A stretch of DNA of 64,000 nucleotides from Williamsia muralis NBRC 105860 (GTDB taxonomy: Bacteria > Actinomycetota > Actinomycetes > Mycobacteriales > Mycobacteriaceae), in assembly GCF_001598915.1 (NCBI RefSeq), contig NZ_BDAP01000003.1, forward strand, positions 372,001 through 436,000, read 5' to 3'. Positions 25,308-48,009 of this stretch are shown here, one piece after another. Position numbers and translations under genes: made by a program. Position 1 is the first letter of the stretch, and every line of letters starts with the position of its first letter. A model generated the notes under the pieces. It did no database searches. It was not told where the DNA came from and saw only the letters and a list, made by a program, of their open reading frames with translations.

Positions 25308-25322
25308 ACACTTGTGTTGTGA
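25308..25322 (+). promoter_or_regulatory. Candidate SufR operator overlapping the sufR start codon
   Basis: The bases read ACACT, five bases, then TGTGA. This matches exactly the ACACT-N5-TGTGA element that I recall being reported for mycobacterial SufR. An overlapping perfect dyad AACACTTGTGTT is at 25307-25318. The second half-site covers the GTG at 25319, so if the site is real, bound SufR would block transcription start or initiation directly, giving autorepression of the SUF operon. Confidence 0.6.
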
Positions 25323-26125
25323 AAACGGCTCACGAAATCTCGCATGCCTCGGACGTGGCATCGATCGACGCTGCGCCGGCAATCGACATTGCGGACGACG
25401 TGCACAGCCCGGTCCCGGTCACCCACGACGGACAGACCCGGTCCGCGGTGGTCACCCTCATCCTCGAGCAGGGCCCGGTGACCGCAGGTCACATCTCAGA
25501 AGCTCTCGGGATCACTCCCACCGCGGTCCGCCGCCATCTCGACGCCATGATCGCCTCGGGCGACGTCGTCGCGACCGCAGCCCCCCGCTACGCCCAACGG
25601 GGCCGGGGTCGTCCCGCCAAGCACTTTCAGCTCACCGCCGCAGGTCGCGGTCGTCTCAAGCACGCCTACGACGACCTCGCAGGCGCGGTGATGCGGCGTC
25701 TGCGGCGGATCGGTGGCGACGCAGCGGTCGAGGACTTCGCCCTCGAGCGTGCCGAGCAGATCGTGGCCGATGTGCCGGTGGCAGGGGATTCTGCCGCCGA
25801 TCGGGAGGGCACCGCGCGAGAAATCGCCGAAGCTCTGACCGAAGCGGGATTTTCTGCGACCACCCGGCGCGTTGGTAATGGTGTGCAGATCTGCCAGCAC
25901 CACTGCCCGGTCGCACATGTGGCAGCGGAGTTCCCTGAGTTCTGCGAGGCCGAAACGGCGGTCTTCACCAAAGTCCTCGGTACACACGTGCAGCGTCTGG
26001 CGACCATCGCCAACGGCGACTGCGCATGCACCACTCATGTGCCGCTTGCGAATCCGCAGGTGGCAAATCAGGTCGACGCCCAGCCCGCGTCGGCACCGGC
26101 AGCCTCCGGAAGGAGTCACTCATGA
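25319..26125 (+). CDS. sufR: SufR, iron-sulfur-sensing ArsR/DeoR-type repressor of the SUF operon
   Basis: 268 aa. N-terminal winged helix-turn-helix at about residues 44-90 ([29 protein letters not shown] in part), then a winged segment [13 protein letters not shown]. Four cysteines C192, C196, C209 and C237 (spacing C-x3-C-x12-C-x27-C) would hold the [4Fe-4S] cluster, as in mycobacterial SufR. GTG at 25319 overlaps the candidate operator. The TGA stop overlaps sufB ATG by 4 bases, so repressor and first scaffold protein are coupled. First gene of the SUF operon. Confidence 0.95.
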
Positions 26126-27579
26126 CGGTCACAGACCCGACACCCACACAGGCAACTGCCGCTGCGGCAGTGCTGACGCAGGAAGAGACGATCGATTCGT
26201 TCGGCGCGTACGGGTACGGCTGGGCGGATTCCGACGTCGCGGGCGCCAGCGCCAAGCGCGGCATCTCCGAAGCCGTGGTCGCCGACATCTCGGCGAAGAA
26301 GAGCGAGCCCGAATGGATGCTCGCCGCACGTCTGAAGGCGTTGTCCATCTTCGAGCGCAAGCCCATGCCGAACTGGGGCTCGAACCTCGACGGCATCGAC
26401 TTCGAGAACATCAAGTACTTCGTCCGCTCCAGCGAGAAGCAGGCAGCCACCTGGGACGACCTGCCCGCGGACATCAAGAACACCTACGACAAGCTCGGCA
26501 TCCCCGAGGCCGAGAAGCAGCGTCTGGTGTCGGGTGTGGCAGCTCAGTACGAGTCCGAGGTCGTCTATCACTCGATCCGTGAGGATCTCGAGGCCCAGGG
26601 TGTGCTGTTCCTCGACACCGACACGGCCCTGCGTGAGCAGCCCGAACTGTTCCAGGAGTACTTCGGAACGGTCATCCCGGCCGGCGACAACAAGTTCTCC
26701 GCGTTGAACACCGCCGTCTGGTCCGGTGGATCCTTCATCTACGTCCCCCCGGGTGTGCACGTCGACATCCCGCTGCAGGCCTACTTCCGGATCAACACCG
26801 AGAACATGGGCCAGTTCGAGCGCACCCTGATCATCGTCGACGAAGGTGCATACGTGCACTACGTCGAGGGTTGCACCGCGCCGATCTACAAGACCGACTC
26901 GCTGCACTCGGCCGTGGTCGAGATCATCGTGAAGAAGGGTGGTCGCTGCCGGTACACCACCATTCAGAACTGGTCGAACAACGTTTACAACCTGGTCACC
27001 AAGCGGGCCAAGGCCGAGGCGGGCGCCACCATGGAGTGGGTCGACGGGAACATCGGCTCGAAGGTCACCATGAAGTACCCGGCCGTGTGGATGACCGGCG
27101 AGCACGCCAAGGGCGAGGTTCTGTCCGTGGCATTCGCCGGACCGGGCCAGCACCAGGACACCGGTTCCAAGATGGTGCACCTCGCGCCGAACACTTCGTC
27201 GAACATCGTCAGCAAGTCGGTTGCCCGTGGCGGTGGCCGGGCCTCCTACCGTGGGCTGGTCCAGATCAACAAGGGCGCGCACGGCAGCCGGTCGACCGTG
27301 AAATGCGATGCGTTGCTGGTCGACCAGATCTCGCGCAGTGACACCTACCCGTACGTCGACATCCGCGAGGACGACGTCACGATGGGTCACGAGGCGACCG
27401 TCTCGAAGGTCAGCGACGACCAGCTGTTCTACCTGATGAGCCGCGGCCTCACCGAGGACGAGGCCATGGCCATGGTCGTCCGTGGGTTCGTCGAGCCCAT
27501 CGCCAAGGAATTGCCCATGGAGTACGCCCTCGAGCTGAACCGTCTGATCGAGCTGCAGATGGAGGGTTCGGTCGGATGA
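26122..27579 (+). CDS. sufB: Fe-S cluster assembly scaffold SufB
   Basis: Core of the SufBC2D scaffold that assembles Fe-S clusters in the cytosol. 485 aa. N-terminal [17 protein letters not shown], then the beta-helix core including [12 protein letters not shown] near residue 252 and [20 protein letters not shown] near 360 with the conserved SufBD region; C-terminal ERP-like [21 protein letters not shown] at 26122 has GGAAGGAG upstream. From memory mycobacterial SufB carries an intein; here the protein is uninterrupted. Stop overlaps sufD by 4 bases. Confidence 0.97.
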
Positions 27580-28766
27580 GTTCTCCCACTGGTGTGGTCG
27601 GCGCTGTCTCCGGCGAGAATCAGGGACCGGCGGTCAACAAGGGTGAGCAGTTCACCTCGTTCGACGTCAACGCATTCGAGATCCCGCGGTCGAAAGACGA
27701 GGCCTGGCGCTTCACGCCGTTCCGGCGCCTTCGCGGACTGCACGACGGCTCGGCGCAACCGACCGGACAGGCCACGGTCACCGTGGACGGTCTGGTGGAG
27801 GGAGCTCGCGTCGAGACTGTAGGGCGCGACGACGCCCGGCTGGGGCAGGGTGGCGTTCCCTTCGATCGCATTGCTGCACAGGCGTATTCGTCGTTCACCG
27901 AAGCCACGGTCGTGACCGTGGACAAGGAGACCGAGATCGCCTCACCGATCACGGTCACCATCGATGGCCCGGGCGAGGGCGAGACCGCGTTCGGTCATGT
28001 CCAGGTCCGGCTCGGTGCCTTCGCCAAGGCCGTGGTGGTCATCGACCAGCGGGGCAGCGGCACGTACGCCGAGAACATCGAGTTCGTGATCGGCGACAGC
28101 GCGCACCTGACAGTGGTGAACATCCACGACTGGGCCGACGACATGGTCCACGTCGCAGCCCACCATTCGCGGCTCGGACGTGACGCGGTGCTCCGGCACT
28201 TCGCGATCAGCCTCGGCGGAGACTTCATCCGGTTGAGCCCGGTGGTGCACTACGACGGTCCCGGCGGCGACGCGGAACTGTGGGGCCTGTACTTCGCCGA
28301 TGCCGGACAGCATCTCGAACAGCACCTGCTGGTGGACCACTCGCAGCCGCATTGCCGGTCGAACGTCGTCTACAAGGGCGCGTTGCAGGGCGTCGCGGGT
28401 GACCGCAGCCGCGAGGCCCATACCGTGTGGGTCGGCGACGTGCTGATCCGAGCCGAGGCCGAGGGCACCGACACCTTCGAACTCAATCGCAATCTGATCC
28501 TCACCGACGGCGCCCGCGCCGACTCCGTCCCCAACCTGGAGATCGAGACCGGCGAGATCGTCGGAGCCGGACACGCAAGTGCCACCGGCCGATTCGACGA
28601 CGAGCAGCTGTTCTACCTCCAGGCTCGTGGCATTCCCGAGGACCAGGCCCGCCGACTGGTGGTCCGTGGGTTCTTCGGTGAGGTCATCGCCAAGATCGGT
28701 GTGCCGGAACTGCGCGAGCGTCTCGAGGCGGCTGTGGAAGCCGAACTCGAGGTTGCAGGCGCCTGA
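27576..28766 (+). CDS. sufD: Fe-S cluster assembly protein SufD
   Basis: Paralogue of SufB in the SufBC2D complex. 396 aa. The start region has the SufD-typical [20 protein letters not shown] near residue 30; the C-terminal core has [28 protein letters not shown] in segments (as HTVWVGD) and [32 protein letters not shown]. The catalytically relevant His is in the SRSNVVYKG-type segment [14 protein letters not shown] overlap with sufB. 52 bases before sufC, the only sizeable gap in the operon. Confidence 0.96.
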
Positions 28767-28818
28767 GCCGCACCCAGCCCCAACACTTCAGCCCATACCA
28801 GCAAGGAATTCGATAACC

Positions 28819-30915
<2,097 letters not shown>

Positions 30916-30916
<1 letters not shown>

Positions 30917-31404
30917 TGCGGATGGAGCAGATGTATCAGGAAGTGATCCTCGATCACTACAAGCACCCGCAGGGGCGAGGTCTGCGTGACCCGTTCGGTG
31001 CCGAGGTCCACCACGTCAACCCGACGTGCGGGGACGAGGTCACCTTGCGAGTACAGCTCTCCGACGACGGAGACAAGATCACCGATGTCTCGTACGACGG
31101 CCAGGGATGTTCGATCTCCCAGGCGTCCACGTCGGTGCTCTTCGAGCAGCTGGTGGGCCAGAACGTCCAGGAAGCCTTGGCGACCGTCGATGCGTTCAAC
31201 CAGATGATGACGTCGCGGGGCACTGTCGACGGTGACGAAGAGGTCATCGGCGACGGAATCGCCTTCGCCGGAGTGAGCAAGTACCCGGCGCGCGTCAAGT
31301 GCGCGCTCCTGGGATGGATGGCATTCAAAGACGCGTTGGCACAGACGGTGGTCAACAGAGAAGCACCGGCCGACAACAACAAATCCGCTAGGGAGTCAGC
31401 ATGA
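30916..31404 (+). CDS. sufU: Zinc-dependent sulfurtransferase SufU
   Basis: Receives persulfide sulfur from SufS. 162 aa, IscU-like fold. MEQMYQEVILDHYKHPQGRG at the start, and the three zinc/active-site cysteines in NPTCGDEVTL, GQGCSISQAS and RVKCALLGW. Contains the SufU-type insertion between the second and third Cys. ATG at 30916 shares a base with the sufS stop; the stop overlaps sufT by 4 bases. Note the additional internal ATG at 30922; the first is favoured by the overlap. Confidence 0.96.
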
Positions 31405-31772
31405 GCGATCAAGCCCCGCCGACAGAGATCAAGGCGCCTGAGGAAGTTCAGACCTCTCTGCCGAAGATCGAGGACATCGAGGAGGCCATGCGCGATGTGG
31501 TCGACCCCGAACTCGGTATCAATGTCGTCGACCTCGGCCTGGTCTACGGACTCGACGTCACCAATGATGCGGTCGCCAAGATCGACATGACACTGACCTC
31601 GGCGGCCTGCCCGTTGACCGACGTGATCGAGGATCAGACCCGGTCGGTCCTGGTGACATCCGGGCTGTGCACCGACATCGAACTGAACTGGGTGTGGCTG
31701 CCGCCGTGGGGCCCGGACAAGATCACCGACGACGGCCGCGAACAGCTGCGCGCGCTCGGCTTCACCGTCTGA
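31401..31772 (+). CDS. sufT: SufT-like MIP18/DUF59 Fe-S maturation factor
   Basis: 123-aa MIP18-family protein that helps load Fe-S clusters onto client proteins. Conserved VDPELGINVVDLGLVYGL near residue 34 and the reactive Cys in TSAACPLTDVIEDQ near 70, with a C-terminal WVWLPPWGPDKITDDGREQLRALGF. ATG overlaps the sufU stop; GGGAG sits upstream. Matches Rv1466 in position. Last certain member of the SUF operon, but the next gene begins only 13 bases on. Confidence 0.95.
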   Translation: MSDQAPPTEIKAPEEVQTSLPKIEDIEEAMRDVVDPELGINVVDLGLVYGLDVTNDAVAKIDMTLTSAACPLTDVIEDQTRSVLVTSGLCTDIELNWVWLPPWGPDKITDDGREQLRALGFTV

Positions 31773-31785
31773 CCCTTCTGGGGCA

Positions 31786-32184
31786 GTGGCAGAAACGTTC
31801 GAGACCCGGATCGATCGGCTGATCCGGGAAGCACAAGAACGCGGCGAGTTCGACAACCTGCGCGGCGCCGGCCGCCCTCTTGATCTCAGCGATGCCGACG
31901 ACCCCGAATGGTGGGCGAAGCGCAAGATCAAGGAAGAGAACCTTGACAGCTCGGCGCTGTTGCCTCCGACGCTTCAGTTACGCCGGGAGGCCCAAGGGTT
32001 TCCGGAATCGCTTGCCTCCCTCCGTGAGGAGTCGGCGGTGCGTCATGTCCTCGAAGTCTTCAATCGCCGGGTCCGGCGTGATCGGCTCGCGCCGAGTCTC
32101 GGGACGGCGTCCTATGTGATCGCCCGCACCGTGGATGTCGAGGCGATGGTGGAGCGATGGCGCGAACTCCGCCGAAGCAGATGA
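31786..32184 (+). CDS. DUF1992 (DnaJ subfamily C member 28-like) protein
   Basis: 132-aa soluble protein of the DUF1992 family, related to the conserved domain of animal DNAJC28 but without a J-domain. The family signature is visible as IREAQERGEFDNLRGAGRPL near residue 14. GTG at 31786 lies 13 bases after sufT, so it is probably transcribed with the SUF genes. Function is unknown; Rv order in M. tuberculosis does not place it here in my recollection, so this may be the left edge of an inserted segment. Confidence 0.88.
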   Translation: MAETFETRIDRLIREAQERGEFDNLRGAGRPLDLSDADDPEWWAKRKIKEENLDSSALLPPTLQLRREAQGFPESLASLREESAVRHVLEVFNRRVRRDRLAPSLGTASYVIARTVDVEAMVERWRELRRSR

Positions 32185-32244
32185 CGTCGATCGCCGAGTT
32201 CGGATCGTCGTAAATCGGTTGTGGTCACCGATACTGTTCTCAGA

Positions 32245-33606
32245 GTGTTGCTGACCATCGAAACGACCGGATCATCGTCTGATCACCGCATTCCTGCGAC
32301 CGATCTCGGGTTCCTGCTGCACAAGCACCCCGACCGGGTCCAGCAATTCGCCACCTCCAGTGGAACCGCAACCGTTTTCTACCCGGTCGCGGACACCTCG
32401 CGATGCCGCGCGGTTCTTCACGTCGGGGGTGAAGACCCGTCACGGTCCACGCTGGGGGCTGCTGACCGCTACGTGAACACGCTGCCGTACGCGGGATCGT
32501 CTCGACTGATGGTCGCGATGGCCAAGGTGATGTCGGATGCGCTCGGCGGCCGCTGCGCACACCGCCCTGACCTGGTCGACACGGTGTGGCAGCTGCAGGT
32601 GACGGTGAGCTCGGTGCCCACCACCGGCGGCGCCGATCTCACCCACGACTTCTTCGAACCGCTTGGCTGGGCGGTGCTTTCCACTGCCACCGTGCTGCAG
32701 CCGACTGAGTGGGGCCCGTCCCGGTTTGTGCAGTTGCAGATGAGTGGCGAGTTCACGCTGCGCGATGCGCTGTCACACATATACGTGCTGATCCCGGCGC
32801 TCGCATCGGACAAGCACTACTTCATCGGTGACGACGAGGTCGACAAACTGTTGCGCCTGAGTTCGCGCTGGCTGTCGAACCATCCTGCGCGCGAACAGAT
32901 CACAAGGCGGTACCTGAAGGGATTGCATTCGCTCACCAACGACGCGCTGGCACGGCTTATACCCGACACCGCGTCACACGAACCACTGCCGAAACGCCGC
33001 ACATCGATGCAGGAGCTGCGCCGTACCGCAGTGGTCGACGCGCTTCGTATGGTCGGCGCGCGGTCGGTCCTCGACGCGGGATGCGGTGAAGGCAGCCTCT
33101 TGCGGGAGCTCGTCACCGAGCCGGGTATCGGCCGACTGGCAGGAGTGGATGTGTCGGTTGCCGCCCTCGGCCGGGCCAGTGACTCGTTGTCCAGGTTCGC
33201 AGCGGTAGAACTGTGGCAGTCATCGCTGATGTACTCGGACAACCGGTGCCGAGGATTTGATGCCGTGGTGCTGATGGAGGTGATCGAGCACGTCGAGCCT
33301 GATCGCCTCGACACAGTCGAGTCGTCCGTGTTCGAGACCATGGCTCCGGCATCGGTGATCGTCACGACTCCCAACCGCGACTACAACGCTCTCTATGGGC
33401 TGGGCGGCAACGAGTTCCGCCATCCTGATCACCGGTTCGAGTTCAGCCGCGCCGAGTTCGAGCACTGGTGTGAACGCGTAGCCGACGATTACCGGTATTC
33501 GGTGACGGTGAGCGCGATCGGAGAGATGGACATGGATGTGGGCTCATCGAGTCAGCTGGCAGTCTTCCGACGGATCGACGCAGAGGCCCCGGAGGTCCAG
33601 CGATGA
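32245..33606 (+). CDS. hen1: RNA 3'-terminal 2'-O-methyltransferase Hen1
   Basis: Bacterial Hen1 methylates the 2'-OH at the 3' end of cleaved RNA before sealing by Pnkp, protecting it from repeat cutting by ribotoxins. About 453 aa: an N-terminal ligase-activating domain (LLTIETTG, ATDLGFLLHKHPDRVQ) and a C-terminal SAM methyltransferase with motif I SVLDAGCGEGSLLREL near residue 275. The metal-binding residues are in LMEVIEHVEP and HPDHRFEFSRAEF. GTG at 32245 matches the family N-terminus; the frame is open to 32221. The stop overlaps pnkp by 4 bases. With Pnkp it forms a repair complex. Confidence 0.93.
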   Translation: MLLTIETTGSSSDHRIPATDLGFLLHKHPDRVQQFATSSGTATVFYPVADTSRCRAVLHVGGEDPSRSTLGAADRYVNTLPYAGSSRLMVAMAKVMSDALGGRCAHRPDLVDTVWQLQVTVSSVPTTGGADLTHDFFEPLGWAVLSTATVLQPTEWGPSRFVQLQMSGEFTLRDALSHIYVLIPALASDKHYFIGDDEVDKLLRLSSRWLSNHPAREQITRRYLKGLHSLTNDALARLIPDTASHEPLPKRRTSMQELRRTAVVDALRMVGARSVLDAGCGEGSLLRELVTEPGIGRLAGVDVSVAALGRASDSLSRFAAVELWQSSLMYSDNRCRGFDAVVLMEVIEHVEPDRLDTVESSVFETMAPASVIVTTPNRDYNALYGLGGNEFRHPDHRFEFSRAEFEHWCERVADDYRYSVTVSAIGEMDMDVGSSSQLAVFRRIDAEAPEVQR

Positions 33607-36155
33607 CGGTACTCGAGATCCCCGAACTGTCTCTCGTGGTGCTCATCGGTGTCACCGGCGCAGGTAAGTCGACGTTCGCAGCCAACAACTTTCGTGAGAC
33701 AGAGGTGTTGTCGTCCGATCGGTTCCGAGGCCTGGTCGCCGATGACCCCACGTCACAGGAGGCGACCGGCGACGCGTTCGAGGTGCTCGAGTTAGTTGCG
33801 GGCAAACGATTGGCGGCCGGGCGCCTCACCGTGATCGATGCGACCAGCGTCCGCGTCGAGGACCGCAAGCGGCTTGTCGCGCTGGCGAGGGCCCATGACG
33901 TCTTACCTGTCGCCATCGTCCTGGACGTCCCTCCGGACGAGCTGCGGGGGCGTGCCCGCGATCGAACAGACATCACGGTCGGTGTCGTCGAACGCCAGTA
34001 CGCGCACCTGCAGCGCAATCGGAAGGGTCTGCGCAAAGAAGGGTTTCGACACGTCCATCAGCTCGATGGTGTAGCGGACATCGATGCCGCGACCATCGTG
34101 CGTACCCCCTTGTTCAGCAACCTCAACGATCGGCACGGCCCGTTCGACATCATCGGTGACGTCCACGGCTGCTTCACCGAGTTGACCACGCTGCTCGGCA
34201 AGATCGGGTGGCGTCTGCAGACCGACACGGACGGCACCGTTGTCGGCGCCGTACCGCCCGAGCCCGGACGGACAGCGATCTTCGTCGGGGATCTGGTGGA
34301 CCGTGGCCCGGACACTCCGGCTGTCCTGCGACTGGTCATGTCGATGGTTCGCCAGGGCAGTGCGTTCTGCGTGCGCGGAAATCACGAGGACAAGTTGCTC
34401 CGCGTCCTTCGTCAGCGCAGCGGTCGCGCCCGAGACGCGCAGCCGATTGCGCTGACCCACGGTCTTGCGGAGTCCATGACGCAACTCGACGCGCAGCCAC
34501 CCGAGTTCACCCGGGAGGTCGTCGACTTCCTCGATTCCCTTGTGTCGCACTACGTGTTCGACGACGGTCGGCTCGTCGTCGCCCACGCCGGGCTGGCAGA
34601 GAAGTACCACGGGCGAGCATCGGGCCGCGTCCGCGACAAGGCGATGTACGGCGAGACGACCGGGGAGACCGATCGTTGGGGTTTCCCGGTGCGGCTCGAT
34701 TGGGCAGCGGACTATCGAGGACCGGCACGGGTGGTCTACGGCCACACCCCGGTCCCGGACGCGGCATGGATCAACAACACGATGTGTCTGGACACCGGGT
34801 GCGTGTTCGGGGGTCGATTGACGGCGCTGCACTACCCGGAGATGGTCTTGACGGCCGTCCCTGCCGAGCAGACCTACTACGACCCCGGCCGACCGATGGG
34901 TTTCGGGACCACACGCGCGGACGTCCGCGTGCGAACCACACTGAACCTGTCGGACGTGGTGGGTAAGCGGATCATCGACACCGCATTCGGGCCGCCGATC
35001 ACCGTCCGGGAGGACAACGCCGCCACCGCATTGGAGGTGATGTCGCGGTACGCGGTTGATCCACGCTGGATCCGGTACCTGCCGCCGACGATGGCCCCGG
35101 TTTCTCCCGGGCGGGCCGATCTGCTGGAGGACCCCCGTGCAGCGTTCGAGTCGTACGGACAACGCGGTGTCTCACAGGTTGTCTGCGAGGAAAAGCACAT
35201 GGGATCCCGGGCGATCATCGTGGTCGCGAAGGACGAGTCAGCAGCGGCGCGGGCGTTCGGCGTCACACAGGGCAGTGGCGCGATCTACACCCGGACCGGC
35301 CGCAGCTTCTTCGATCCATCGGTCACGGAGCAACTGATTGTCCGAATCCGGCGAGCGTGCGCTGAGTTGTTCGATGAGCTCGACTCCGACTGGCTGATCC
35401 TCGATGCCGAGTTGCTGCCATGGAACGTCAAGGGGGAAGGCCTGATCCGCGACCAGTTCGCCTCTGTCTCGGCAGCGGCGGGCCCCGAGCTGCATGCACT
35501 CGGCGCAGAACTGGCGAGGGCCGCAGACCGGGGTCTGGATGTCCAGACCATGATCGACGCGAACGCGAAACGCCGTGCGGATGTGGAGGCGTACACCGAT
35601 GCGTATCTCCGCTACGTCGATGTCGACGCGCGGCCGGACACCGTGTCGCTCGCGCCGTTCGAGGTACTGGCAAGTGCCGCAAGCGAATACGGCGGGTCGT
35701 CGCACGGTTGGCACCTCGAGGTGGCCGCGCGGCTCGCTGCGGCCGACCCTGTTCTCTTCCGGCCGACGCGGCACATCGTGGTCGACACCGGCTCGGATAC
35801 CTCGTGTCTGGAAGGAGCTCGATGGTGGGAGGAGCTGACCGCGGCCGGATCCGAAGGGATGGTCGTCAAACCGGCCGGGAACCTCACCCGTGTCGGCGGC
35901 AAGCTGATCGATCCTGGTGTGAAGGTTCGCGGTCGCGAGTACCTGCGGATGGTCTACGGTCCCAGCTACCTCGATGATCTGCCGACCCTCCGGTCACGCG
36001 ACCTGCGGCACAAGCGGTCCATGTCGATGCGCGAGTACCAACTGGGACGGGAGGCCCTCGCCCGCCAGGCACGCTCTGAGCCACTCTGGCGCATCCACGA
36101 GTGTGTCTTCGCGATCCTGGCGCTGGAGAGTGAGCCGGTGGATCCCCGACTCTGA
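33603..36155 (+). CDS. pnkp: Polynucleotide kinase-phosphatase Pnkp (RNA end-healing and sealing)
   Basis: 850-aa three-domain enzyme. Kinase domain: P-loop VLIGVTGAGKSTFA at residues 13-26. Calcineurin-type phosphatase: DIIGDVHGCFTEL near 183, GDLVDRGPDTPAV near 230, CVRGNHEDKL near 255, VVAHAGL near 325. Ligase-like adenylyltransferase: CEEKHMGSRAI with the AMP-accepting Lys at residue 531, later TRTGRSFF and LDAELLPWN. It heals the 2',3'-phosphate and 5'-OH ends and, with Hen1, seals them. ATG overlaps hen1 stop. The C-terminal region after about 700 includes EGMVVKPAGN. Ends 2 bases from the convergent Asp23-like gene. Confidence 0.95.
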   Translation: MTVLEIPELSLVVLIGVTGAGKSTFAANNFRETEVLSSDRFRGLVADDPTSQEATGDAFEVLELVAGKRLAAGRLTVIDATSVRVEDRKRLVALARAHDVLPVAIVLDVPPDELRGRARDRTDITVGVVERQYAHLQRNRKGLRKEGFRHVHQLDGVADIDAATIVRTPLFSNLNDRHGPFDIIGDVHGCFTELTTLLGKIGWRLQTDTDGTVVGAVPPEPGRTAIFVGDLVDRGPDTPAVLRLVMSMVRQGSAFCVRGNHEDKLLRVLRQRSGRARDAQPIALTHGLAESMTQLDAQPPEFTREVVDFLDSLVSHYVFDDGRLVVAHAGLAEKYHGRASGRVRDKAMYGETTGETDRWGFPVRLDWAADYRGPARVVYGHTPVPDAAWINNTMCLDTGCVFGGRLTALHYPEMVLTAVPAEQTYYDPGRPMGFGTTRADVRVRTTLNLSDVVGKRIIDTAFGPPITVREDNAATALEVMSRYAVDPRWIRYLPPTMAPVSPGRADLLEDPRAAFESYGQRGVSQVVCEEKHMGSRAIIVVAKDESAAARAFGVTQGSGAIYTRTGRSFFDPSVTEQLIVRIRRACAELFDELDSDWLILDAELLPWNVKGEGLIRDQFASVSAAAGPELHALGAELARAADRGLDVQTMIDANAKRRADVEAYTDAYLRYVDVDARPDTVSLAPFEVLASAASEYGGSSHGWHLEVAARLAAADPVLFRPTRHIVVDTGSDTSCLEGARWWEELTAAGSEGMVVKPAGNLTRVGGKLIDPGVKVRGREYLRMVYGPSYLDDLPTLRSRDLRHKRSMSMREYQLGREALARQARSEPLWRIHECVFAILALESEPVDPRL

Positions 36156-36157
36156 CG

Positions 36158-36619
36158 TCACCCGGGGATGGAGTGCGGCTGATCTGCCGGGCTCGCAGAG
36201 TCAACCGGTTGGACGTCCACCCACGTGACGTCGACACAGTCGGCCACCGTGATCCGTAGTGACCCGAGCCGGCCGCGGACGGCCTCACGGACCTGCTCGC
36301 TCATCGCGCCGATCTGATCGCCGTACCGGGCGACCATCTCCACGCGAATCCTGCGGACGGATCCGTGGTCGGTGGTGATGTGGATCGCGGCGACGTCGCG
36401 TCGACATGATCGGTCGATCGCGCGGGCAAGCAGCTGGCGGATCGCGCGCTCGTTGATCTCGATGCCGGGATCGTCGGTGGCGATCGGGACACCCAACCGC
36501 GTGGCCGACCGAAGCCTGGGTCCGAGCCGTTCCAGGACCACTCCCTCGTCGCCGTGCGCGAGGTGGGCGGCGGCATCGCTGATCCAGGTATCGGCTTCAC
36601 CGGGGCGCTGGACTGTCAT
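36158..36619 (-). CDS. Small Asp23/Gls24-like protein downstream of an ECF sigma factor
   Basis: 153 aa. The second half, with IHITTDHGSVRRIRVEMVARYG-type alternation followed by VREAVRGRLG and a terminal VDVTWVDV strand, resembles the alternating strand-helix pattern of Asp23 proteins but is divergent. ATG at 36619 with AAGGAAGG upstream; the frame is open to 36904 inside the sigma-factor gene, which it overlaps by 23 bases, so it is in the sigma operon. It could be a regulator of the sigma factor, but no anti-sigma motif (such as HxxxCxxC) is present. Confidence 0.75.
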   Translation of the reverse strand: MTVQRPGEADTWISDAAAHLAHGDEGVVLERLGPRLRSATRLGVPIATDDPGIEINERAIRQLLARAIDRSCRRDVAAIHITTDHGSVRRIRVEMVARYGDQIGAMSEQVREAVRGRLGSLRITVADCVDVTWVDVQPVDSASPADQPHSIPG

Positions 36620-37244
36620 CTCGCCTTCCTTCCGTCGTCGGTCGCGGGATCTGATGCCGGATGCGTCCGGGTGATCGGGCCTCGTGAACATCGGAGCCGT
36701 CCGGTCCCCACGCGGCGAGTCGTACAGCCAACTGTGATCGTGCACGCTGCAGATGTCCACGCACCGAGCCGCGCGAGATGGCGAGCGCCGTGGCGATCTC
36801 ATCGTGCGACAGGCCTTCGACCTCCCGTAGCCACCAGCATGCGCGCGCCTGGTAACCGAGCCTGCCGAGCTCGGTCTGGAGTGCGACGAGAAACGAGTGT
36901 TCAACCGTGCGAGCAGCTGGGCCGGGGGTCCGTACTTCCATCGCCTCGAAGGTGTTGTCGGAAATCACGATCGCGCTCTGCCGTCGCTGGAGATCGACCG
37001 TCTTGCGCGAGGCGATGGTGAACAGCCATGTGCGAAAGCTCGACCGGAAACCGAACCGGTCCAATCCGCGCCACGCGGCGAGGAACGTCTCCTGAGTGAT
37101 GTCCTCCGCTGTTGTCGGAGATCCGGTCAGTCGGGTCGTGTATCGAAGGACGGGCGTCAGGTGACAACGCATCAGCTGGTCGAACGCCTGGCGATCGCCC
37201 AGGGCAGCCGCGCGAATCAATGATTCTTCGGCGCGCGCATCCAT
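36597..37244 (-). CDS. ECF-type RNA polymerase sigma factor
   Basis: 215 aa. Sigma-2 region at residues about 8-75 with LIRAAALGDRQAFDQLMRCH and ITQETFLAAWRGLDRF, and a sigma-4 region at about 120-175 with REVEGLSHDEIATALAISRGSVRGHLQRAR. A 35-residue Arg/Pro-rich tail follows. ATG at 37244. It is divergent from the Asp23-type operon 117 bases away and overlaps the Asp23-like gene downstream, so it probably controls the whole envelope-stress module. Confidence 0.92.
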   Translation of the reverse strand: MDARAEESLIRAAALGDRQAFDQLMRCHLTPVLRYTTRLTGSPTTAEDITQETFLAAWRGLDRFGFRSSFRTWLFTIASRKTVDLQRRQSAIVISDNTFEAMEVRTPGPAARTVEHSFLVALQTELGRLGYQARACWWLREVEGLSHDEIATALAISRGSVRGHLQRARSQLAVRLAAWGPDGSDVHEARSPGRIRHQIPRPTTEGRRDDSPAPR

Positions 37245-37272
37245 TTGTTCAGCGTGCCAGAAAGTCGTGCGT

Positions 37273-37296
37273 GCAACATGCGGTTCTCAACCCGTC
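37273..37296 (+). promoter_or_regulatory. Possible ECF-type promoter for the Asp23 operon
   Basis: GCAAC at 37273-37277, 15 bases, then CGTC at 37293-37296 resembles the -35/-10 pair (GGAAC with CGTC or CGTT) recognised by many ECF sigma factors. It sits 66 bases before the Asp23 start and 50 bases from the divergent sigma gene. One mismatch in the -35 and the short motifs make this weak evidence. Confidence 0.3.
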
Positions 37297-37361
37297 AAAG
37301 GGGTGGGAGAGCAGATCACCCGGTCTGCCATCCGGACACCGAACCGACGAGGGAGCACCTT

Positions 37362-37847
37362 ATGACCAGCGCGACGTCCAGGCAGGATGACGAGCCGACC
37401 ACCGCCAGGGATGAACTCAGTCACACCGACGGCCGTGGTCCCGATCAGAGCGATGCGGGAGGCAAGACGTCGATCGCCGATGTCGTGGTGGCCAAGATCG
37501 CCGGGATCGCGACGCGTGAGATAGACGGCGTCTACGACCTCGGCGGTGGCGCAGCGCGTGCGGTCGGCAAACTACGCGAAAGTCTGCCGGGGACCGCTGC
37601 CGACGTCACCCAGGGCGTGTCGGTGGAAGTCGGCGAGAAGCAGGCCGCGGTCGATGTCGGATTGGTTGCCTACTACGGCGTGGCGATCCACCAGCTTGCC
37701 GAATCCATCCGGACCAACGTGATCGAAGCGATCGAGAAGATGACGGGTCTGGAGGTCACCGAGGTGAACGTGACCGTGCACGACGTTCACCTCGACACCG
37801 ACGATCCGACCACCGCGCTCGACGGCCAGACACCGCGGGTCCAGTGA
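37362..37847 (+). CDS. Asp23/Gls24 family envelope stress response protein
   Basis: 161 aa. A polar, disordered lead of about 35 residues, then the Asp23 domain: TSIADVVVAKIAGIATREIDGVYDLGGG near residue 37, VSVEVGEKQAAVDVGLVAYYG near 88, IRTNVIEAIEKMTGLEVTEVNVTVHDVHL near 120 (in segments). Family proteins coat the inner face of the membrane through AmaP. ATG at 37362 with GAGGGAG upstream; the frame open to 37245 lacks one. Stop overlaps the next gene by 4 bases (GTGA). First gene of a five-gene operon. Confidence 0.93.
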   Translation: MTSATSRQDDEPTTARDELSHTDGRGPDQSDAGGKTSIADVVVAKIAGIATREIDGVYDLGGGAARAVGKLRESLPGTAADVTQGVSVEVGEKQAAVDVGLVAYYGVAIHQLAESIRTNVIEAIEKMTGLEVTEVNVTVHDVHLDTDDPTTALDGQTPRVQ

Positions 37848-38191
37848 CAGTCACAGCGGCCTCCGCAGTGCTCATCCGTGAACGGGTGTTGTCTGTCGAC
37901 GGCGTGGCAGACCTGCACGCGGGCACCTTCGGGGAGATCGCCACACATCTGCCCGGCCGGCGGGTGAACGGTGTGCGAGTCGGCCGTTCCGGCGTCGAAA
38001 TCCATGTGGTCACCTACCTCGATGTCGACGTCGCGGGGGTGGCCCGCAACGTCCGTGCGGCCGCGGTGTCGGCCGCGCCGGGAGCGATCGGCTACACCGT
38101 CGTCGTCGAAGATGTTGTTGCGCGCCAGGACTTTCGAGTCGCAGTTGCAGATAGCGGCCGGGGTACATCCACAGAAACGAGTCAATCATGA
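37844..38191 (+). CDS. Asp23-like small protein
   Basis: 115 aa. Shares the Asp23 pattern (IRERVLSVDGVADLHAGTFGEIATHLPG then a VTYLDVDVAGVARNVRAAAVSAAPG-type segment and a VVVEDV strand) but is shorter and lacks the N-terminal tail. GTG at 37844 overlaps the preceding stop, and its TGA overlaps the next ATG, so it is tightly coupled to both. Likely a second subunit of the membrane-associated stress assembly; the exact role is not known. Confidence 0.85.
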   Translation: MTVTAASAVLIRERVLSVDGVADLHAGTFGEIATHLPGRRVNGVRVGRSGVEIHVVTYLDVDVAGVARNVRAAAVSAAPGAIGYTVVVEDVVARQDFRVAVADSGRGTSTETSQS

Positions 38192-38367
38192 ACAATTCCG
38201 TGATCGGGCTGTTCGTCGGCCTGCTGTTCGCCCTGGCGGTCACCACCGGAGGTTTCTCCGGCCTGATGGTCGCGGTGGTGTTCGCGGCCATCGGCGTGGC
38301 CGTCGGCGCCCATCGTGACGGCCGCATCGACCTCGGTGCACTGTTACGGAGCAAAGGCCGTGGCTGA
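38188..38367 (+). CDS. 59-aa membrane protein (DUF2273-like) of the Asp23 cluster
   Basis: Small gene of 60 codons, ATG at 38188 overlapping the previous TGA (ATGA). It encodes MNNSVIGLFVGLLFALAVTT followed by a second hydrophobic stretch SGLMVAVVFAAIGVAVG and a charged tail HRDGRIDLGALLRSKGRG. Two predicted helices with a positively charged end fit the small membrane proteins (DUF2273) found in Asp23/AmaP clusters. Its stop overlaps the next gene's start region by 8 bases. It is too short for a default ORF search and is easily missed. Confidence 0.82.
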   Translation: MNNSVIGLFVGLLFALAVTTGGFSGLMVAVVFAAIGVAVGAHRDGRIDLGALLRSKGRG

Positions 38368-39391
38368 GGCGGCAACTGCCGAGCGCGTCGGCGGTTCCCA
38401 CCTACCGACCCCCGAACACCGAGGCTCCCTGCAGATCGAATCGCGCGTGATCTCTCAGATCGCCCGCCAGGCGGCGCTCGAGGTCGATGGCGTGGTGCCG
38501 TACGCGGTGACGTTGGGGTCACTCACAGGTCGCAATCTCCCTCGCGCCCTTGCTGATTCCGATCCGCGCCATCCGGCGATCACCGTGGAGATCGCGGTGA
38601 GCTGGCCGATGCCGGCAGTTGATGTCGCCGAGCGGGTTCAGCAACACGTCATCGAGGTTGTCACCCGGTTGACCGGACGCCGGCCGGCGCGAGTGGATGT
38701 CGAGGTCACCGAGGTCGTCCAATCGAGGATGTTGCTGGGGGAGGAGCTGGCCCAAGTGTCCGCTGCCGAACCCGGCCCGGACACGGGTACAGAGGCGGCG
38801 GCGCCGCACGGTCGCACCAGGGCCGAGGGCGGGCCGCCGCGGAGCTTTCCGACTGCGGGATGGCTCGCGCCTGTGCTGGGGCTTGGTCTGCTTGCACTCG
38901 CCGTTGTTGCAGGCCGGGAGTATGCCGTTGTCCAGGGCCACTATCGGTCCGAGGCCTGGATCGAACCCTCTGCGCGCTGGATTTCCGGGACCGAGTGGAG
39001 ACCGTGGATGGTCGTGGTTGCCGTCGTGTGCGTGCTGGTGGGGCTTTACTTCGTGTACGCCGCCGTACGGCCTCGACGTCGCACCCACCGACCACTACGG
39101 GCCACGGGCGTGTGGACGCGCGACACCGACGTCGCCCGCCGGCTCAGCGCCATCGCACTCGACGACGACAACACCGTGTCCGCCACCACCAAGGTGACGT
39201 CAGGCCGCGCCCATGTACGTGTGTTCGTCACCTCACCGACGGAGAGCGACCTCTCGGACCGCCTCGAGGCATCGACGGCAACGTTGGCCCGACCGCCCCG
39301 CGTGAGCGTGGATCTTCGTGGCGTCACCCACCCGAACATGACCGTGATCGACGAGAGGGAGCCTGATGCGGCGCACCCTGAACGCCCTTGA
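38360..39391 (+). CDS. Asp23-domain protein fused to a DUF6286 membrane domain
   Basis: 343 aa. Residues about 25-130 form an Asp23 domain (IESRVISQIARQAALEVDGVVPY, then VEIAVSWPMPAVDVAERVQQHV-like and VDVEVTEV). A low-complexity linker follows, then two membrane helices around residues 165-185 and 215-235, and a C-terminal DUF6286 region starting WTRDTDVARRLSAIALDDD. It thus carries both the soluble Asp23 module and its own membrane anchor. GTG at 38360 was chosen because it overlaps the 59-aa gene by 8 bases; the frame is open to 38315. Confidence 0.85.
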   Translation: MAEAATAERVGGSHLPTPEHRGSLQIESRVISQIARQAALEVDGVVPYAVTLGSLTGRNLPRALADSDPRHPAITVEIAVSWPMPAVDVAERVQQHVIEVVTRLTGRRPARVDVEVTEVVQSRMLLGEELAQVSAAEPGPDTGTEAAAPHGRTRAEGGPPRSFPTAGWLAPVLGLGLLALAVVAGREYAVVQGHYRSEAWIEPSARWISGTEWRPWMVVVAVVCVLVGLYFVYAAVRPRRRTHRPLRATGVWTRDTDVARRLSAIALDDDNTVSATTKVTSGRAHVRVFVTSPTESDLSDRLEASTATLARPPRVSVDLRGVTHPNMTVIDEREPDAAHPERP

Positions 39392-39926
39392 CCGCCTCGC
39401 GGTGGGCCTGGTCGGCGTGCTTCTCGCCGCGGCCGGCCTGATCGCCCTGCTCCGTTGGGCGGGCGTGGGACCGGTGACCGATGCGGTCGGCAACGTCGAC
39501 ACCGATCAGATCTACTCAGCGCCGGGACAATCGTGGTGGGACTGGGCACTGCTTTCCGCAACCGTTCTGCTGGGGATCTGTGGTGCGTGGCTGTTGTTGG
39601 CGAACATCTCGCCGAATCGCCTGCGGTCGGTGACAGTGCGACCGCAGGGTGAACCGTTTGTCGGCGAGATCGACATCGCCGTGGCCGACGTGGCCCGGGC
39701 GGCGGCCAGGTCTCTCGAACGGCATCGTCATGTTCGCTCCTCGGCAGTCCGGTCTTATGTCGACGGCGCAACCCCTGTCGTCGAGATCACGGTGACGGCT
39801 TCTCCGACCGCCGACGACCACGATCTCGGCGCCGCCGTGAGCGGGGTGAGGGAGCTGCTCAAGTCGTCGCTCCGGGGCAGCGACGTCCAGATACGCATGC
39901 TGCTGCACCGCGAACCCAACCACTGA
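39366..39926 (+). CDS. AmaP-like alkaline-shock membrane anchor protein
   Basis: 186 aa with two transmembrane helices, at about residues 9-32 and 58-82, joined by a short external loop (VDTDQIYSAPGQSWWDW). The cytoplasmic C-terminal part alternates strands and helices (EIDIAVADVARAAARSLERH, VVEITVTASPTADDHDLG) and resembles AmaP, the anchor of Asp23. It overlaps the preceding gene by 26 bases. Closes the Asp23 operon 25 bases from the convergent lycopene cyclase. Confidence 0.82.
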   Translation: MRRTLNALDRLAVGLVGVLLAAAGLIALLRWAGVGPVTDAVGNVDTDQIYSAPGQSWWDWALLSATVLLGICGAWLLLANISPNRLRSVTVRPQGEPFVGEIDIAVADVARAAARSLERHRHVRSSAVRSYVDGATPVVEITVTASPTADDHDLGAAVSGVRELLKSSLRGSDVQIRMLLHREPNH

Positions 39927-42856: not shown

Positions 42857-44386
42857 TCAGACGTAGTTCTTCTGCAGTTCTCGCTTCACCAGTTTTCCGG
42901 TGGGCGTGCGGGGGAGTTCGTCGACGAAGTCGACCGACTTGGGTGCCTTGTAGTGCGCAAGGCGCTCCCGCACGAAGTCGATCATCTCCTGAGCCAGCTC
43001 AGGGGACGGGTTCACGCCCGGCTCGAGCTGGACGCATGCCTTGGCGACCTCACCCAGATCTGGGTCGGGCACCCCGATCACGCCGACGTCGAAGACGTCA
43101 GGGTGTCCGATGAGGACGTTCTCGGCTTCCTGCGGGTAGATGTTCACTCCGCCGGAGATGATCATGAACGATTTACGGTCGGTGAGGTACAGGAAACCCT
43201 CCGCGTCGACGTAACCGACATCGCCGCTTGTCGTCCAGGCCGGGTGGTCGGGGTGCTGCGCAGACTTCGTCTTCTCCGGATCGTTGTGATACTCGAACGG
43301 CAGTTCGTCGCGTTCCCAGAAGACCGTGCCGATCTCGCCGGTGGGCAGTTCGTTGCCATCGTCGTCGCAGATGCGCACCACACCCAGCAGGGGTTTGCCC
43401 ACCGAACCGGGGTGGGTGAGGGCTTCCTCGCTGTTGATGAACGTGGCGCCGGCGCCCTCGGTGGAGGCGTAGTACTCGTGGATCACCGGGCCCCACCACT
43501 TGATCATGGCCTGCTTGACCTCGGGAGGACACGGCGCGGCCGCGTGGATTGCGATCTTCATGCTGCTGACGTCGTATTTGGCGCGGACATCCTCGGGCAG
43601 TTTGAGCATGCGGATGAACATCGTGGGCACCCACTGGCTGTGGGTGACCCGGTACTCGTCGATCAGGCCCAGCGCACCTTCGGCGTCGAACTTGTCCATC
43701 AGCACGATCGTGCCCCCGACGGAGTTGACCATGCCGCAATAACGCAGCGGCGCAGCGTGATACAGCGGAGCGGGGCACAGGTACACACATTCCTGGTCGA
43801 ACCCGTACAGCAGGGAGAACACCGCCGTGTACGGGTCGGGGATCTCGTTCACCTGCCCGTCCTGCAGCGGTACCTTGATGCCCTTGGGCCTGCCGGTGGT
43901 ACCGGACGAATACAGCATGTCCTGGCCGCGGGGCTGGTCGGTCAGGGGCTCGTCGGAGGCGTTGGCGAGGATCTCATCGAACGACTCGAAGCCCGGTACG
44001 TCGCCACCCCAGGCGATTCGGTGCGTCACCCCGGGCACCTGATCCGCGGCGCTGACCGCATCGGCCACCTCGGCGGAGGCGAACAGGGCGACCGCGCTGC
44101 AGTCGCCGAGGATGTAGTTGACCTCGTCGGGTGTGAGGTGATTGTTGATCGCGGTGACGTACATCCCCGAACGCACTGCCGCCCAATAGATCACGAGCAC
44201 TCGGATGTCGTTGTTGGAGACGATGGAAACGTTGTCGCCGCGGCCGAGGCCGAGGTCGTCACGCAGGTAGTGGGCGACTTGGGTCGATAGCCTGTCGAGC
44301 TCGGCGTAGGTGATCGACTCACCGGTCGCCGGTCGCACGACGGCGACCTTGTCAGGGGTGGTGGCGACAAAATTGCCCGGGAACAT
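42857..44386 (-). CDS. Fatty acyl-CoA/AMP ligase (FadD-like)
   Basis: Activates a carboxylic acid by adenylation and thioesterification to CoA. 509 aa. P-loop-like LYSSGTTGRPKGIKVP near residue 163, YYASTEGAGATF near 302, SGDVGYVDAEGFLYLTDR near 385, and the C-terminal catalytic Lys in PRTPTGKLVKREL near 494. ATG at 44386 is chosen because GGAGG lies just upstream and homologues start MFPGNF; the frame is open to 44413. The substrate is not predictable; position between Rv1473- and acnR-like genes is not a typical fadD locus, so it is probably accessory. Confidence 0.93.
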   Translation of the reverse strand: MFPGNFVATTPDKVAVVRPATGESITYAELDRLSTQVAHYLRDDLGLGRGDNVSIVSNNDIRVLVIYWAAVRSGMYVTAINNHLTPDEVNYILGDCSAVALFASAEVADAVSAADQVPGVTHRIAWGGDVPGFESFDEILANASDEPLTDQPRGQDMLYSSGTTGRPKGIKVPLQDGQVNEIPDPYTAVFSLLYGFDQECVYLCPAPLYHAAPLRYCGMVNSVGGTIVLMDKFDAEGALGLIDEYRVTHSQWVPTMFIRMLKLPEDVRAKYDVSSMKIAIHAAAPCPPEVKQAMIKWWGPVIHEYYASTEGAGATFINSEEALTHPGSVGKPLLGVVRICDDDGNELPTGEIGTVFWERDELPFEYHNDPEKTKSAQHPDHPAWTTSGDVGYVDAEGFLYLTDRKSFMIISGGVNIYPQEAENVLIGHPDVFDVGVIGVPDPDLGEVAKACVQLEPGVNPSPELAQEMIDFVRERLAHYKAPKSVDFVDELPRTPTGKLVKRELQKNYV

Positions 44387-44532
44387 CAACGACCTCCGGC
44401 TCAGCGAATCCACGAGGCGGCCCGAACGGCCGCGATATGTTAACCAGAACTATCACATTCCTCGCGGTTGCCGAGGAGTTATCCGAAGGAGTCATGAGGC
44501 CGGCGTAACAGATGTCGTGGACGCGGCACGCG

Positions 44533-44588: not shown

Positions 44589-45155
44589 TCAGCGGGTACG
44601 GCGGACCGATTCCTCCACGAGGTCCAGAACCGCGTGCAGATCGTCGGTCGCGGCGCCCGATGCCAGCCGGGTGGTGAGCCCGTCGAGGATGAGATCGAGG
44701 TAGGCCACCAGAACGCGTGTGGGCAGATCGTCGCGCAACCGTCCGGCCGTCCGCTGCCGCTCGAGGCGAGCCAGTGTCGCCGACTCAAGCTCGGCGGAAC
44801 GTTCCTTCCAACCAGAACGAAACGCCGCGTCGGTGCGCAACTTACGGGCGATCTCCAGACGTGTTCCCAGCCAATCGAACTCCTCGGGATGGTTGAGCAT
44901 GTCGCGCATCACCTGGACAAGACCTTCGTTCGCGGCCACGTCGGCCATTCGCTCGGCGTCCTCGTGCGCCAGCGCGAGGAAGAGCGCCTCCTTGTCCCGG
45001 AAGTGATGGAAAATTGCTCCCCGGGACAAGGAGGTTGCCTCCTCGAGCCGACGCACGGTGGCGCCGTCGTAACCGAACTCGGCAAAACAACGGCGCGCAC
45101 CGTCGAGGATCTGACGTCGCCGGGCTTCCAGGTGGTCTTGGCTTACCTTGGGCAC
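44589..45155 (-). CDS. acnR: TetR-family repressor AcnR
   Basis: 188 aa. N-terminal helix-turn-helix region (residues about 15-58) with ILDGARRCFAEFGYDGATVRRLEEATSLSRGAIFHHFRDKEAL in segments. GTG at 45155 gives PKVSQDHLEARRRQ, as in mycobacterial homologues; the frame extends upstream into acn. It lies 16 bases after the acn stop. In Corynebacterium glutamicum AcnR represses acn, and a matching operator is found at 48133-48148, so the same role is strongly suggested. Not proven here. Confidence 0.92.
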   Translation of the reverse strand: MPKVSQDHLEARRRQILDGARRCFAEFGYDGATVRRLEEATSLSRGAIFHHFRDKEALFLALAHEDAERMADVAANEGLVQVMRDMLNHPEEFDWLGTRLEIARKLRTDAAFRSGWKERSAELESATLARLERQRTAGRLRDDLPTRVLVAYLDLILDGLTTRLASGAATDDLHAVLDLVEESVRRTR

Positions 45156-45171
45156 CCGCGGAGTCCTCTGA

Positions 45172-48009
<2,838 letters not shown>

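Follow-up and report, generated by a model that had tools for sequence, protein, structure and literature searches.

A hen1-pnkp cassette and its promoter region in Williamsia muralis

The 64,000-nt stretch of Williamsia muralis NBRC 105860 analysed here (contig NZ_BDAP01000003.1, positions 372,001 to 436,000; hereafter the window) carries a hen1-pnkp cassette for bacterial RNA repair, preceded by a short promoter box that recurs upstream of other hen1 genes and, in many relatives, of rtcB (Table 1). A first-pass annotation of the sequence had described a pair of complete RNA repair enzymes, with all catalytic motifs and a 4-base gene overlap, beside the SUF operon, and these points were borne out, with one 132-aa DJC28-domain gene (31786-32184) intervening between SUF and the cassette. 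That is, both proteins are full-length and exceed the cut-offs of their families: Hen1 scores 529 bits against TIGR04074 (cut-off 340), with a Pfam Hen1_L match at E=2.7e-83 and a methyltransferase domain, and Pnkp scores 1227 bits against TIGR04075 (cut-off 750), its residues 3-850 aligning to model positions 2-851 of 851 and profiles recognizing the kinase, phosphatase and ligase domains. Structural relatives are PDB entries 4dqz, 3jwg and 3jwh for Hen1 and, across all three domains, 4drf, 3ty8, 4j6o and 4gp6 for Pnkp; some of these chains we take to be from Clostridium thermocellum. The two genes lie on the same strand and overlap by the sequence ATGA (33603-33606), an arrangement from which a single operon with co-transcription is predicted. 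The assigned hen1 start fits the family model, since translation from 32245 places residue 1 at position 1 of Hen1_L; an upstream in-frame GTG at 32221, which is TTG in the relative G008 owing to a 1-base deletion, is also a possible start.

Table 1. Features of the hen1-pnkp locus (window coordinates)
Feature	Position	Strand	Description
hen1	32245..33606	+	453 aa; 3'-terminal RNA ribose 2'-O-methyltransferase with N-terminal ligase-activating region; TIGR04074, Pfam Hen1_L
pnkp	33603..36155	+	850 aa; RNA kinase-phosphatase-adenylyltransferase; TIGR04075
Conserved promoter box	32212..32222	+	AAATCGGTTGT (scored as TAAATCGGTTGT, 32211-32222); 33 bases upstream of the start codon of hen1
Putative -10 element	32232..32237	+	TACTGT; separated by 7 bases from the GTG start codon; transcript predicted to be leaderless
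DJC28-domain gene	31786..32184	+	132 aa; PF09350, E=1.2e-21; between SUF operon and hen1; neighbour, outside the cassette
ArsR-family regulator (probably SufR) and sufB-D-C-S-U-T	25319..31772	+	Co-directional neighbour; regulator, sufC, sufS, sufU and sufT named by family match (Pfam/NCBIfam), sufB and sufD by position and mutual similarity only
Convergent orf248 and extracytoplasmic function (ECF)-type sigma gene	36158..37244	-	orf248 without family match; sigma gene with Sigma70_r2 and r4; right border of the cassette

Alignment with other cassettes, leaving out rows of the window's clade as well as broken and short rows, revealed that Pnkp retains 209 of the 214 columns conserved in at least 97% of 156 other Pnkp, and Hen1 63 of the 66 such columns among 150 others. 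The retained residues include K22, R117, D186, H188, D230, N260, H261, H328, H381, D397 and K531-H-M-G-S-R536 of Pnkp, and E345, E348, H349, H393 and H396 of Hen1, which we take to be catalytic; the K531 site named in the earlier annotation is among them. Departures from conserved columns are D173N, L201I, R410H, G750S and A808S in Pnkp, and F96M, L255M and T436S in Hen1. Of these, R410H (34830-34832) is a genuine oddity: the position is arginine in all 156 other sequences and lies in the phosphatase domain or just past it, presumably outside the catalytic residues. Ratios of non-synonymous to synonymous substitution rates (dN/dS) against three close species were 0.13-0.22 for hen1 and 0.10-0.15 for pnkp, indicating purifying selection on the two genes, neither of which is broken. 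The composition of the cassette is ordinary (GC content at third codon positions, GC3, 0.77-0.79), and its Pnkp is about 48-58% identical to those of the compared cassettes outside its own clade. As far as the enzymes are concerned, then, this is an ordinary intact bacterial Hen1-Pnkp pair, present in many related bacteria.

A conserved box upstream of hen1

A Gibbs motif search over 100 non-redundant hen1 upstreams (-100 to -18), from which the window's clade was left out and in which position was not used, returned the motif AAAACCGCTGGC at 7.41 bits, against 5.72-6.04 bits in four shuffled sets (three restarts for the real upstreams, two for the shuffled ones). When rerun with equal restarts, the search gave 7.2 bits against 5.69-6.01 in nine shuffled sets. 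The best sites fell at -46..-41 in 53 of the 100 training upstreams. Among 148 upstreams with well-placed starts, related rows included, 80 had a site of at least 8 bits, and these were distributed over two preferred positions, with 55 sites at -46..-41 (distal) and 15 at -35..-31 (close), one at -40..-36 and 9 elsewhere; after de-duplication, 55 of 101 rows had such a site (35 distal, 10 close, 1 between and 9 elsewhere). Sites that concentrate at two places some 11 bases from each other, and nearly avoid the interval, are as expected for a regulator that would bind on one face of the helix. Since no canonical -35 element is visible, a protein recognizing the box would perhaps be an activator rather than a repressor.

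The box of the window is of the close form and scores 11.5 bits with a position weight matrix trained on hen1 upstreams of the other clades (p=0.004, dinucleotide shuffles; rows are related in this and the other promoter statistics, so that the p-values are too small). By the same matrix 14 of the 17 members of the left-out clade reach p<0.05, and 13 of the 15 close sites come from this clade, the other two (L072, from Oerskovia, and L165) lying outside it. Within the clade, the 75-base stretch preceding hen1 contains, with some variation among the 17 cassettes, the element AAWYCNGTTGC-N9-TASNGT-N6/7-GTG, and TA-N3-T occurs 8-10 bases past the TTG-type end of the box in all 17 of these (S-type) cassettes. 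A pattern drawn from the sites of the clade, including that of the window, has a single match in the 5.5-Mb own genome, at hen1, and none in a reversed control. A third match in that genome to a relaxed pattern (G000:C8:6981-7006), upstream of a small open reading frame that is helix-turn-helix-like by eye, was taken as chance. A generic sigma-70 scan gave no site in the region before hen1. The box shows little dyad symmetry (column correlation of 0.48 at best, many centres having been tried), and none is claimed here. By eye, the box also differs in sequence and spacing from the PafBC-type (RecA-NDp) DNA-damage promoter, TTGTCRGTG-N8-TANNNT.

The hen1 box before rtcB genes of Gordonia

Bacteria have another ligase for RNA ends of the type mended by Hen1-Pnkp, namely RtcB. 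The scoring matrix had been trained on hen1 only, with no rtcB sequence in the training, and it identified sites at p<0.05 in 17 of 35 rtcB upstreams, all of them in Gordonia (17 of 27). As a control, 385 called genes from 35 loci (rtcB, hen1 and pnkp included) were scored, of which 21 (5.5%) reached p<0.05, that is, chance level. The median for rtcB was 9.1 bits versus 5.0 in other genes (p=1.2e-5; 17 rtcB, 2 from the window's genus and 15 from Gordonia, against 348 others, with related rows), and scores of at least 11 bits were found for 6 of 17 rtcB versus 3 of 348 other genes. These three were an HNH-domain gene directly before rtcB (G327), a dehydrogenase-like gene just before hen1 (Gordonia G275) and a SnoaL-domain gene. 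By these scores the box is commoner before rtcB than before other genes. It is found before rtcB also in Gordonia that lack Pnkp (e.g. G016, G045, G281 and G325). In G309 (L209) the gene immediately preceding hen1-pnkp is rtcB, so that the three make up a small island of RNA-repair genes. Taken together, the data suggest that actinobacteria may have a common RNA-repair switch serving hen1-pnkp and rtcB.

It could be argued that the box is instead a general promoter feature of leaderless actinobacterial genes, an A-rich element plus -35 with no dedicated regulator behind it. The distal form does overlap the -35 region, and A-rich stretches before promoters are generally known to be common; however, a general feature would sit poorly with the rarity of high scores among the 348 other genes as compared with rtcB, and the division of the sites between two positions some 11 bases apart, with hardly any in the interval, is unlike a -35 element. 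We regard this explanation as unlikely.

Several observations weigh against a regulator common to hen1-pnkp and rtcB. In the window's own genus none of the 8 rtcB upstreams reached p<0.05 (4.8 bits in the own genome; the best, in G003, at p=0.086), and when 13 further rtcB loci were scored, 4 from Gordonia and 9 from other genera of the phylum, 2 in each group passed the threshold. What hen1 and rtcB have in common in the genus is the geometry AAANNNNTTG-N10-TASTGT alone, which among the 8 rtcB upstreams is confined to those from the four species of the window's clade, and this pattern was written after the rtcB site had been seen. The rtcB gene adjoining hen1 in G309 is without the box (p=0.82). 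No 8-bit site occurs in 68 of the 148 hen1 upstreams (46 of 101 after de-duplication), many Streptomyces among them. In the gene-called control hen1 itself was not above the other genes (9 genes, p=0.26), mainly because the gene caller often placed its start too early. Finally, no regulator was found for the box, and the transcription starts are predictions.

Exclusion between the two repair systems was considered and not seen: RtcB is present in 17 of 25 Pnkp-bearing versus 15 of 34 other Gordonia (p=0.11, or p=0.007 with the window's genus added; uncorrected for kinship). In two Gordonia an HNH-endonuclease-domain gene directly precedes rtcB (L284:6561-7055 and L285:5167-5712), that of L284 having a promoter box 36 bases upstream. 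In G008 the rtcB match is split into two pieces that overlap and are read in different frames (G008:C5:4076414-4077528), so rtcB may be broken in this strain, in which hen1-pnkp is intact.

Distribution and history of the cassette

Pnkp above the cut-off was found in 8 of the 9 genomes of the window's genus. In four of the nine (G000, G003, G005 and G008), whose Pnkp are 97-98% identical, the cassette is located between the SUF/DJC28 and the sigma/Asp23 genes. It is missing at this site from the other five, which are the more distant congeners: G004, G006 and G007 have the DJC28 gene followed directly by the convergent orf248 (empty site), G002 has neither cassette nor DJC28 there, and in G001 sufT adjoins the lycopene-cyclase and ABC-F genes. 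Another locus, with its own hen1 and a Pnkp about 54% identical to that of the window, is present in G002, G004, G006 and G007. In Gordonia, Pnkp was above the cut-off in 25 of 59 genomes and the cassette lies beside SUF in 10 of the 59 (sufT at most about 4 kb from pnkp); in two further Gordonia of the clade it lies about 30 kb from sufT and in one more on another contig. Over the whole family sample 85 of 301 genomes had a Pnkp above the cut-off. Synteny was mapped for 60 of the 77 above-cut-off family loci outside the genus (10 from Gordonia and 50 others), and SUF linkage was seen in 4 of the 10 mapped Gordonia loci and in none of the 50 others, so that the site is far from being occupied in nearly all Gordonia and Rhodococcus genomes. 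Among 80 named loci the SUF operon appeared only at L040 and L041, and these two correspond to G005 and G130. The L040 record (NZ_JNYV01000001.1), titled Kitasatospora arboriphila NRRL B-24581, has a Pnkp 97% identical to that of the window and the same gene order, and is probably mislabelled.

In a quick pnkp tree, 13 Gordonia cassettes and those of the window's four species form one clade, with a support of 100 in the Shimodaira-Hasegawa-like approximate likelihood ratio test (SH-aLRT), within which the part from the window's genus and the Gordonia part are each single (63% mean identity). The remaining 12 Gordonia cassettes occupy three places in the tree. In a SufS-U-T tree (42 rows), species with a SUF-sited cassette are scattered among cassette-less ones. 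Since the SUF cassette is shared by four species of the genus, and belongs to a deep clade in which it is sister to Gordonia cassettes mostly in the same place, the trees and gene orders indicate an old, mostly place-faithful lineage of the two genera, with many losses or exchanges, rather than a fresh insert; transfer explains the pattern no better than does an early arrival followed by many losses. The first-pass annotation had presented the cassette as an insertion, and of this the presence and absence at the site stands. A recent strain-specific event, on the other hand, is rejected: three close relatives carry the cassette at the same place, as do ten Gordonia, and its composition is ordinary. 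No genome with two cassette types was found among the 59 Gordonia or among the nine of the window's genus (hypergeometric P=0.035 and 0.040), a pattern that is suggestive only. Broken copies also occur, with a frame break in pnkp of Gordonia G310 and a C-terminal piece only in G322.

The position beside SUF raises another explanation for the control of the cassette, namely that it extends the SUF operon and is read from the SufR-controlled promoter, which would make RNA repair respond to oxidative stress or to a shortage of iron. Cassette and operon run in the same direction, the gap to the preceding gene is 60 bases with no terminator-like site found between, and of the clade's 17 cassettes 14 (four from the genus, ten from Gordonia) are beside SUF, all 14 co-directional and on either side of the DJC28 gene. 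Read-through from SUF into hen1 may occur. Yet a conserved promoter element belonging to hen1 itself lies within the intergenic gap, and none of the examined cassettes of other clades is SUF-linked, which makes it doubtful that the SUF promoter is the one that governs the cassette.

Neighbouring genes and the question of a defence role

The first-pass annotation had further proposed that the cassette might be a defence or antitoxin-like system. According to this explanation it would be a strain-specific insert shielding tRNA from phage-triggered or rival ribotoxins, which would agree with the patchy presence in the family, with the occurrence of at least two cassette clades within a single genus, and with the 18 of 72,556 plasmid records that have one place covering at least 80% of Pnkp. 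However, four species share one site and the composition is ordinary, and none of 50,697 phage records covers 80% of Pnkp. PADLOC, run on 7 window proteins, gave a single match, of the methyltransferase to mads_2 (E=4e-8, 30 bits). No known defence model or defence-island neighbour was found around the cassette, the neighbours being SUF, sigma/Asp23, lycopene-cyclase and ABC-F genes and some genes without a family match; likewise, no recognised toxin family was found among the scanned neighbours, several of which have no family match. MazF-type toxins are present in 22 of 25 Gordonia with Pnkp and in 33 of 34 without. The proposal of a defence role therefore finds no backing in these results, and we consider such an insert improbable. 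Flanking genes from 128 cassette loci were also clustered, and representatives of some clusters could be named by Pfam. These comprise major facilitator superfamily (MFS) transporters, luciferase-like enzymes and a carbamoyltransferase, as well as an EF-Tu-like gene seen in one Rhodococcus-like group, and none of them is a partner of cassettes in general. The EF-Tu-like gene lies about 100-290 bases before hen1 at L168:3147-4397 and at seven similar loci of a Rhodococcus-like genus and one neighbour genus, its assignment resting on Pfam for L168 only.

Between pnkp and the ABC-F gene the window contains the ECF-type sigma gene, an Asp23-type cluster and the lycopene-cyclase gene. The sigma-factor/Asp23/AmaP-like cluster (36158-39926) adjoins pnkp in the window's clade; its Asp23 part also adjoins pnkp in the Rhodococcus-like genus (L166-L169), and the cluster adjoins rtcB in some Gordonia (L273 and L286-L288; named by eye). 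Further along, 42857-44413 and 44589-45266 most likely encode a minus-strand AMP-binding enzyme and a TetR regulator rather than plus-strand open reading frames, on the basis of Pfam for both and of the dN/dS pattern for the former.

A proposed RNA-damage response and its relation to known systems

We put at roughly 0.63 the probability that the cassette encodes a working Pnkp-Hen1 repair complex, expressed from a conserved-box promoter under a regulator common with rtcB, and that the SUF cassette is an old lineage. Given what the families do, Pnkp would heal the 2',3'-cyclic-phosphate and 5'-OH ends left by transesterifying RNases, and Hen1 would activate the ligase half of Pnkp and methylate the terminal 2'-OH ahead of sealing, so that the mended RNA, most likely tRNA, would resist recutting at the same spot. 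The two genes would be transcribed from the predicted promoter, with the box at one of two positions about one helical turn apart, and one transcription factor might bind the box and induce both repair systems as broken RNA accumulates. Hen1-Pnkp cassettes would have been gained and lost at several loci and yet plug into this common control. The broader proposal of a dedicated actinobacterial RNA-damage response, in which a factor acting on a GGAAAAYCnSTnGCC-like box (two positions, one turn apart) switches Hen1-Pnkp as well as RtcB, and in which moving cassettes carry or re-evolve the box and so join the regulon of the host, seems to us about an even bet. The conserved box offers a practical handle, as bait for the regulator, as reporter for the signal and as search key for further actinobacterial RNA-damage genes.

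The enzymes are of a known type, and what looks new is the promoter box, together with its recurrence before rtcB. We know of no RtcR/sigma-54 route in actinobacteria. The searched titles and abstract beginnings, and the available parts of PMC4411300, PMC4012209 and PMC7790460, contain no mention of the box or of its sharing with rtcB, which does not prove that these are unpublished; nor do those titles and abstract beginnings name a trigger or regulator of bacterial Hen1-Pnkp expression. With the bacterial Pnkp-Hen1 system of the Martin/Shuman and Huang laboratories the window shares both proteins, their domain order, the conserved residues and the hen1-pnkp gene order, whereas the promoter element and the rtcB link were not met in that searched part of the literature. 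According to PMC4411300, hen1 and pnkp invariably share an operon, and the ligase is activated by Hen1, which also methylates the 2'-OH. The Capnocytophaga Pnkp1-Rnl-Hen1 complex (PMC4411300) has the same repair chemistry with methylation but consists of three proteins with the kinase-phosphatase apart from the ligase, unlike the single fused Pnkp of the window. As for control, PMC7790460 describes in Salmonella a likewise transcriptional switch for RNA repair, in which broken tRNA itself turns on the rtcBA operon via RtcR, a CARF-domain regulator acting at a sigma-54 enhancer promoter. By comparison, the promoter of the window has a sigma-70-like -10 with the box about 9-20 bases upstream, and the box serves Hen1-Pnkp too, so that the route proposed here would be parallel to the RtcR switch of Salmonella but unrelated to it.

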